From contig JACOMY010000007.1 in NCBI GenBank assembly GCA_014324045.1, positions 24,990 through 88,989 of the forward strand: a stretch of DNA of 64,000 bases, given 5' to 3'. A program made the position numbers and the translations under genes. Below, piece after piece: positions 44,282 to 48,137 of this stretch (position 1 is the first letter of the stretch; the number at the start of each line of letters is the position of its first letter). Source of the DNA: Rhodospirillales bacterium. GTDB lineage: Bacteria > Pseudomonadota > Alphaproteobacteria > Kiloniellales > JACOMY01. Below the pieces are notes generated by a model that had not been told where the DNA came from, made no database searches, and saw only the letters and a program-made list of their open reading frames with translations.

Positions 44282-44311
44282 TTGACAACCGGCGGCCGGA
44301 GGCGGTACTCT
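44282..44311 (+). promoter_or_regulatory. Sigma70-like promoter TTGACA-N18-TACTCT
   Basis: Perfect -35 hexamer at 44282-44287, -10-like hexamer at 44306-44311, upstream of the lipoprotein gene. Confidence 0.5.
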
Positions 44312-44341: not shown

Positions 44342-45193
44342 GTGAACACCGTGAAACGCTTTGTCTCGATCGCAACAACCCTTTTTCTGGCGTGCAGCCT
44401 GTCGGCCTGTGGGGGGGGGAGCAGTAACCCATCCGGGGGGAGCAGTAACCCATCCGCTGCTTCAAGAAACTTTGCAAGCTTGGACACCCTTATCTCGGCA
44501 AGAATGCATCAAGTATTCCAAGGTTCCCCTATTACCCTCAATCCTTCATGTGTGGGGAATACGTGCCAATTCCAATCCGAATTGGGAGATAGTGCCCCAC
44601 TTGACACTAGTATTTTTAACCTCAGCGTCGAAGCTACGGGATTCCGCATGATAGAATACCGTATCGTCTCGGAGGACAACGGCATCACGTTCCGGGAAGG
44701 ACGAAGCATACAAGTCCTTAGCCCGAATTTCCTGACTTATGGCGGCTGGATGGACCACGCGGTCTTCCAAGTGTCAACGAACCACAGACCGGAAGCCGGT
44801 CAGGCTAATGGGCGGAGTGCAGAGGCGGGTGGCGATCTCACAGGGTCGTCTCCGGCTGCCGACGCGACATGGCGCGGCGCGATGGTCGGGACAGTGGCAA
44901 CTGGCGCTCGCGCTATCCTGCAAGGAGATGCGGAATTGGTCTACAGCCTTGAGGACAGCCAGCTCGACGCCACCTTCAGCAACATCGAGAACCGGGACAA
45001 CAATAACCGCCCTCACTCTGTGGAGACGATCCGCTTCACCGATGTGCCGGTTGACGCCGGTGGCACTTATGAAGACAGGCAATCTGCTGACGATTACATC
45101 CAGGGCTTTTTTGCCGGTCCGAACCAGGCGGAAACTGTCGGCGTCTTCGAAAAGGAGAACATCGTCGGGGCCTTTGGGGCCAGGAAGCAGTAG
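44342..45193 (+). CDS. Surface lipoprotein, TbpB/Slam-substrate-like C-terminal barrel
   Basis: Lipobox LSAC; C terminus [34 protein letters not shown] typical of transferrin-binding-protein-like lipoproteins. Confidence 0.62.
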
Positions 45194-46418: not shown

Positions 46419-47282
46419 TCAAGTCGCGGGCTGTCCCTGTCGGAAGGGATGGGCCGGATAGACGCCCAGAACCCGCACCTCGCGGCTGAAGAAGGAGAGT
46501 TCCTCCAGGGCCAGGCGGACCGGGCGCATGTCGGGATGGCCCTCGATGTCGGCGTAAAACTGGGCGACGGTGAAGTTGCCGTCGATGATGTAGCTCTCCA
46601 GCTTGGCGATGTTGACGCCGTTGGTGGCGAAGCCGCCCAGGGCCTTGTACAGCGCCGCCGGCACCGAACGTACCCGGAAGACGAAGGAGGTCACGATCGG
46701 CCCCTCGTCGGACGGCGGATCGCTCGGCTCGGCCGCCATGATCACGAAGCGCGTGGTGTTGTCGGCGCTGTCGTTGATGTCGCCGTCGAGCAGCGCCAGC
46801 CCGTAGATCTCGGCGGCGAGGCGGGGAGCGATGGCACCGACGCTTGGGTCCCCCAGCTCCTTGATGCTGCGGGCGGCACCGGCGGTGTCGGCCACGATCT
46901 CGCGCTCCAGGCCACGGTCGCGCAGATAGCCGCGGCACTGCGAGAGGGCCTGCACGTGGCTGCGCACGCGCTTTAGGCCGGAGAGTGCGGTCCCCGGCAA
47001 GCCCAACAGCTGGTGACGGATCGCCTGAAAGTGCTCGCCGACGATATGCAGCCCCGATTCCGGCAGCAGATGATGGATGTCGGCGACCCGCCCGGCACTT
47101 GAGTTGTCGATGGGAATCATCGCCAGCGCGGCACGGCCCTCTTGCACCGCGGCAAAGGCCTCCTCGAAGGAGGTACAAGGCAGGGTTTCCATGCCGGGAT
47201 AGCAGCTACGGCAAGCCATGTCGGAGTTCGCTCCGGCAAAGCCCTGGAAAGCAATGCGCCCCTCGGCGCCGGATAATGACAT
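46419..47282 (-). CDS. pheA: Prephenate dehydratase (PDT + ACT)
   Basis: IAFQGFAGANSDMACRSCYPGMETLPCTSFEEAFAAVQEGRAALAMIPIDNSSAGRV; NTTRFVI; ACT ALYKALGGFATNGVNIAKLESY. Confidence 0.95.
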   Translation of the reverse strand: MSLSGAEGRIAFQGFAGANSDMACRSCYPGMETLPCTSFEEAFAAVQEGRAALAMIPIDNSSAGRVADIHHLLPESGLHIVGEHFQAIRHQLLGLPGTALSGLKRVRSHVQALSQCRGYLRDRGLEREIVADTAGAARSIKELGDPSVGAIAPRLAAEIYGLALLDGDINDSADNTTRFVIMAAEPSDPPSDEGPIVTSFVFRVRSVPAALYKALGGFATNGVNIAKLESYIIDGNFTVAQFYADIEGHPDMRPVRLALEELSFFSREVRVLGVYPAHPFRQGQPAT

Positions 47283-47378
47283 CGGTACTCTCTATTTATC
47301 TAACTTTACGCGAAAACGCTCCCATCGGCGGCGGGTGCCGAGGGGGCTGCCCAGGGGACTGCCCAGGGGACTGCAGGG

Positions 47379-48137
47379 TCAGCGGCCCAGGATCTGCCGT
47401 GCGCGCTCCAGGTCGGCCGCAGTATCGACACCCAGCGGAACCGAGTCAACGAGGGCCACATCGATGCGCATGCCGGCCTCCAGCGCACGTAGTTGTTCCA
47501 AACTTTCGCGCTGTTCCAAGGGCGAGGGCGGCAGCGCCACGAAGCGCTCCAGGGCGGCACGGCGGTAGGCATAGATGCCGATGTGATGGAAGAGCGCGCG
47601 CCGGTCCTCCTCGCCGGTCCAGGGAATCGGCGCGCGCGAAAAATAGAGTGCGCGGGCTATGCGGCGTTCCGCAGAGAGCGGCGCTGCGATCTTCACCACG
47701 TTGGGATTGCTGCGCTCCTGCACGTCGTCGATGCGGGCGGCCAAGGTGCCGATGTCACAGGTCGCCTCCGCCAGCGGTCCAAGCGCCAGGACGATGTCCT
47801 CCGGCGGCAGGGTCGGCAAGTCGCCTTGCAGGTTCACCACGACGTCGTACCGGCGCCCGGGGTCGAGGTGCTGCAGCGCTTGCTGGACGCGGTCGGAGCC
47901 GGACGGCAGGTCGGGGTCGGTCATGACGGCGGTACCGCCGGCTGCGGTCACCGCCCGGGCAACGGCCTCTTCGGGGCAGGCGACGGCTACCGGCCCCACC
48001 CCGGCCGCCTGTGCGCGCTCAAGCACGTGGACGATCATCGGCTTGCCGGCGATCGTGGCGAGCGGCTTACCGGGGAGCCGGGTGGAGGCCAGTCTGGCCG
48101 GAATCAGGACGATCGGACGCAAGGAAGCATTCCTCAA
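47379..48137 (-). CDS. kdsB: 3-deoxy-manno-octulosonate cytidylyltransferase
   Basis: [87 protein letters not shown]. Confidence 0.96.

Follow-up and report, generated by a model that had tools for sequence, protein, structure and literature searches.

A G9 tract and a tandem duplication behind the lipobox of a TbpB-like lipoprotein gene probably encode a flexible tether

Does a run of nine G residues immediately downstream of the lipid-acceptor cysteine codon of a lipoprotein gene act as an on/off switch for its expression, or is it simply the DNA of a protein linker? This question is raised by a gene from a Rhodospirillales bacterium (GCA_014324045.1, contig JACOMY010000007.1), which lies within the stretch of 64,000 nucleotides analyzed here (hereafter the window). 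An initial annotation had proposed that the G run, together with a repeated block that follows it, might render a surface lipoprotein phase-variable. We infer instead both a tether function and the absence of switching, and assign a probability of roughly 70% to the reading that the G9 tract and duplicated block are the DNA of a flexible glycine tether, and that the long G run is not maintained as an on/off switch. Specifically, these nucleotides would encode a flexible stretch of Gly, Ser, Asn and Pro that tethers the folded part of the protein to the lipidated Cys. This tether would be lengthened by in-frame tandem duplication, possibly also by slippage inside GGG codons, such that the long G run would be a by-product of three consecutive GGG codons. 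The relevant features of the window are as follows.

44282-44311, plus strand: possible promoter, TTGACA - 18 nt - TACTCT (sequence reading; tentative)
44351-45193, plus strand: lipoprotein gene, 280 aa, predicted single TbpB-fold C-terminal barrel (ORF, AF2, Foldseek)
44351-44410, plus strand: type II signal peptide of 20 aa with lipobox LSAC (read by eye; paralogues have comparable signal peptides)
44411-44419, plus strand: G9 tract, three GGG codons (Gly-Gly-Gly), directly 3' of the Cys codon at 44408-44410
44414-44455, plus strand: perfect 21-nt tandem duplication, in frame, encoding GGSSNPS twice (TRF score 86)
44831-45190, plus strand: predicted eight-stranded beta-barrel domain, the last 120 residues (AF2, Foldseek)

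The GTG at 44351 is a likelier start codon than the GTG at 44342 (which would give 283 aa), judging from a GGGAG motif read upstream of the former. The candidate promoter was not detected by a consensus promoter scan. The gene is flanked by a manC-like gene and rlmN, and its GC content is 56.5%, versus 67-69% in these neighbors. When the last 120 residues are modeled by AF2 together with two distant homologues, the result is an eight-stranded barrel (mean pLDDT 87.1, pTM 0.80) that Foldseek matches to NHBA, the Slam-dependent PmSLP, hemophilin, LbpB and TbpB. A full-length model from a three-row alignment reaches a pLDDT of 41, and even so its Foldseek matches are TbpB-like. Profile comparisons give weaker signals of the same kind: a profile of eight family members, when searched against solved structures, matches only TbpB/LbpB chains and does so weakly (best E 0.014), and the 280-aa protein scores 17.7 bits against Pfam TbpB_B_D, below the curated cut-off of 26. 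By these models the protein is a TbpB/hemophilin-type C-terminal barrel lipoprotein, which presumably resides on the cell surface. The earlier label of a TbpB-like lipoprotein is therefore apt at the level of the fold, as judged by AF2 and Foldseek, and does not extend to TbpB proper, which was rejected because the protein has one barrel rather than two handle-barrel lobes and because no gene for a TonB-dependent TbpA is adjacent.

Inspection of the linker reveals how the G run is built. The TGT codon for Cys is followed by three GGG codons, then by AGC, AGT, AAC, CCA and TCC, two further GGG codons, the same five codons again, and finally GCT. The duplicated unit, GGGGGGAGCAGTAACCCATCC, is 21 nt long and occurs as two perfect copies (44414-44434 and 44435-44455), and it overlaps the G9 tract at 44414-44419. 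Thus, the duplication and the G6 run (44435-44440, the beginning of the second copy) described earlier are both present, whereas the unit given for them was one G short. The duplication, which has the highest TRF score among the four tandem arrays in the window, is clearly not a product of chance. The G9 tract exists because a GGG codon stands directly before this unit, whose first two codons are GGG as well; all five linker glycines of the gene are encoded by GGG, and therefore a G run results.

In its local setting the tract stands out, as the only G run of at least seven on either strand of the window. G8 words number two where 6.25 are expected from dinucleotide shuffles, and a run of at least nine appears in about 3% of windows simulated with a 5th-order Markov model. 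The genome as a whole carries 18 G runs of at least eight, including nine of at least nine, with a maximum of 11. Hence the G9 tract is locally unusual yet not unique. G8 to G11 runs also lie within frames that, as identified by eye, resemble AlaRS, RecN, amidase, CitE and DUF1800 proteins; the run in the CitE-like gene is a G9 (C31:36503-36511). The two G11 runs (C9:52476-52486 and C30:10256-10266) are longer than the tract in the window; one is positioned just before a likely ATG start and the other within a 457-codon DUF1800-like frame. By tract length alone, they are better candidates for length variation than G9.

The protein belongs to a large paralogous family, with approximately 30 matching stretches in the 2.8-Mb genome (contigs C2, C4, C7, C8, C9, C17, C27, C35, C37, C39, C44, C45 and others). 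Single-barrel lipidated members comprise the window gene and genes on C39 (two), C2, C9 (two) and C8; members with one or more barrels behind a plain Sec signal are found on C27, C4 and C35, and also on C17. Paralogues on C2 and C27 exceed the TbpB_B_D cut-off. Many copies are located at contig ends, as though repeats had broken the assembly. Perfect in-frame tandem arrays occupy the earliest post-Cys codons in three of the seven lipidated paralogues:

Window gene 44351-45193, post-Cys codons: 21 nt x 2 (GGSSNPS)
Gene C9:29761-30774, post-Cys codons: 18 nt x 2 (GASDRS)
Gene C9:31097-32221, post-Cys codons, array at L085:6073-6148, minus strand: 9 nt x 8.4, perfect (GPA, collagen-like; weak Pfam Collagen match)

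Strong arrays, defined by a score of at least 70, have a density of 12 per 186 kb across the examined sequence, which predicts only 0.04 for the 7 x 90 nt of post-Cys sequence, versus the three observed (Poisson probability about 1e-5, calculated post hoc). Each of the three periods is a multiple of three nucleotides, and the duplicated block of the window gene, having a 21-nt unit, can alter length only in frame. The simplest mechanism for such arrays would be in-frame tandem duplication, through which a disordered tether grows longer. The anchor peptide of TbpB is required for its receptor complex (PMC4475390), so that by analogy the length of the tether may matter here as well.

Homologous linkers permit the G run to be separated from the glycines that it encodes. 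Post-Cys linkers from homologues in other genomes (n=20) are often Gly-rich, with as many as eight consecutive glycines, and their Gly codons are mixed (GGC 36%, GGT 29%, GGA 23%, GGG 11%). The longest G run among them is 7, in a single linker (L138), with no more than 5 in the remainder. Thus, the long G tract of the window gene is not kept in these 20 linkers, and it is likewise absent from the six other lipidated paralogues. In this regard the gene resembles lipoproteins with glycine-rich tethers of the Cys-Gly-Gly-Gly-Ser type, in which a Gly/Ser-rich disordered stretch directly after Cys is common among homologues, and it differs from them in drawing exclusively on GGG. This codon usage also counts against the tether reading: GGG makes up 16% of Gly codons in neighboring genes and 11% in the homologous linkers, compared with five of five here. 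The same reading must also accommodate the rarity of a nine-G run under the 5th-order model, and the fact that nine Gs is the published threshold for candidate phase-variable tracts in Neisseria (at least nine; PMC5953494).

The family is sparsely distributed among relatives. No family member was found among the other genomes of the order (n=62), whereas 12 of the 384 others sampled in the class have the family, mostly in multiple copies. A single-protein query of the genome contigs recovered no orthologue in which the tract could be compared, and a profile query recovered only two metagenome-assembled genomes, with the labels Boseongicola and Rhodobacteraceae, and their linkers do not consist of G runs. 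The longest frames in the region upstream of rlmN in relatives included no trace of the lipoprotein gene. We also considered whether lipoprotein genes with a poly-G stretch after the lipobox recur genome-wide, and rejected this idea because GGG-GG occurs in only one of 14 lipobox-Cys-Gly-Gly matches, the window gene itself; most of the other matches do not resemble lipoproteins. A recurring class-wide architecture was rejected as well, given that the one other match in 385 genomes is a spurious 59-aa frame, and that lipobox-Cys-G8 occurs in no real lipoprotein of the 384 other genomes.

The alternative that survives best, though we hold it only tentatively, agrees that the linker is a tether and adds that its length varies, always in frame. 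Gain or loss of 21-nt units would tune the stand-off distance from the membrane, and this variation would be adaptive and shared by several paralogues. That three paralogues have perfect arrays at a shared position, with periods of 21, 18 and 9 nt, is consistent with this possibility, as is the role of the anchor peptide in TbpB complex formation. However, a copy number of two is low for a hypermutable array, and any variation in length may be neutral.

Less likely is the proposal of the initial annotation, that the tract is a simple-repeat contingency locus in which expression of the lipoprotein is turned on and off by slipped-strand mispairing within G9 (and G6), in the manner of Neisseria hpuA. 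Several of the observations on which it was based are correct. Nine Gs do follow the lipid-acceptor Cys codon immediately, and this 5' coding position and length place the tract at the Neisseria threshold. A change of one G would indeed shift the frame, leaving 25 aa upon gain or 99 aa upon loss, and thus a switch is mechanically possible. Poly-G phase variation is also established for surface antigens. HpuA, a Slam-dependent surface lipoprotein of the same structural superfamily, is phase-variable via a coding poly-G (PMC3786947, PMC5320596, PMC7857515) that ranges from G8 to G10 between gonococcal strains (PMC5320596), and it provides a close structural and positional precedent. HpuA and the window protein are both surface-type lipoproteins that have a C-terminal barrel and, in the coding region, a poly-G of similar length, whereas the window gene has no adjacent hpuB-like partner. 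The expansion of a lineage-specific surface-protein family would also suit such a locus. Although this mechanism is plausible, phase variation of the lipoprotein is disfavored by the absence of the tract from the paralogues and relatives compared, the similar runs in ordinary genes of the same genome, the lack of this architecture across the class (384 other genomes), and the presence of mismatch repair, with both MutS and MutL encoded. Together, these sequence comparisons argue that the conserved feature is the protein tether, and they would remain compatible with a switch private to this species.

A combination of these two alternatives, in which the post-lipobox linkers form a hypermutable set (21, 18 and 9 nt, and G9) that varies tether length and in addition sets the on/off state of the window gene, appears more improbable still. 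An error in the G count or copy number of the draft genome is very improbable, since an intact frame of 280 codons runs through both tracts and the locus is interior to an 89-kb contig, even though the assembly is divided into 46 contigs and several family members lie at their ends.

The closest known proteins are T11SS (Slam) cargo of the lipidated TbpBBD type, PmSLP, TbpB, LbpB and NHBA (PMC8406197, PMC12282271); like them, the window protein would combine a lipobox signal, a disordered N-terminal segment and an eight-stranded C-terminal barrel. T11SS cargo includes TbpB-barrel proteins that are lipidated and others that are soluble (PMC8406197, PMC12282271). The genome encodes one Slam/SlipAM homologue (contig C5, L083:4812-6167, minus strand, 451 aa, with TPR and SlipAM domains), and the family is probably exported by this protein, on which it would then depend. 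Unlike many cargo loci, in which the Slam gene is often adjacent, this homologue is located away from the lipoprotein gene of the window. A search of the literature on TbpB families of sponge symbionts returned nothing specific.

If the tether reading is correct, then a conspicuous G run downstream of a lipobox can be nothing more than glycine-tether DNA, and the codon mix of homologous linkers offers a simple test to distinguish a tether from a switch. Were the length to prove variable, poly-G phase variation of Slam-type lipoproteins would extend from Neisseria to a distant proteobacterium.

Several minor observations concern the same family and its surroundings. A decayed TbpB-like lipoprotein frame is present just upstream of the Slam homologue (L083:6200-6740, contig C5, minus strand). 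A single in-frame TGA interrupts the C8 member (L086:4560-5509) just after its lipobox, with a long open frame beyond, and another, at L087:6660-6680, separates a 1144-codon frame from one of 635 codons in the C27 member; these could be pseudogenes, cases of recoding or errors. Upstream of the C8 member, an 18-nt unit, AAGGGGGAAGCCTGAAGG, is present in five near-perfect copies (L086:3004-3093). Within the window, a 12-nt tandem array of TGCCCAGGGGAC (x 3.2; 47336-47374) occupies the interval between a gene ending at 47282 and the gene at 47379-48137.
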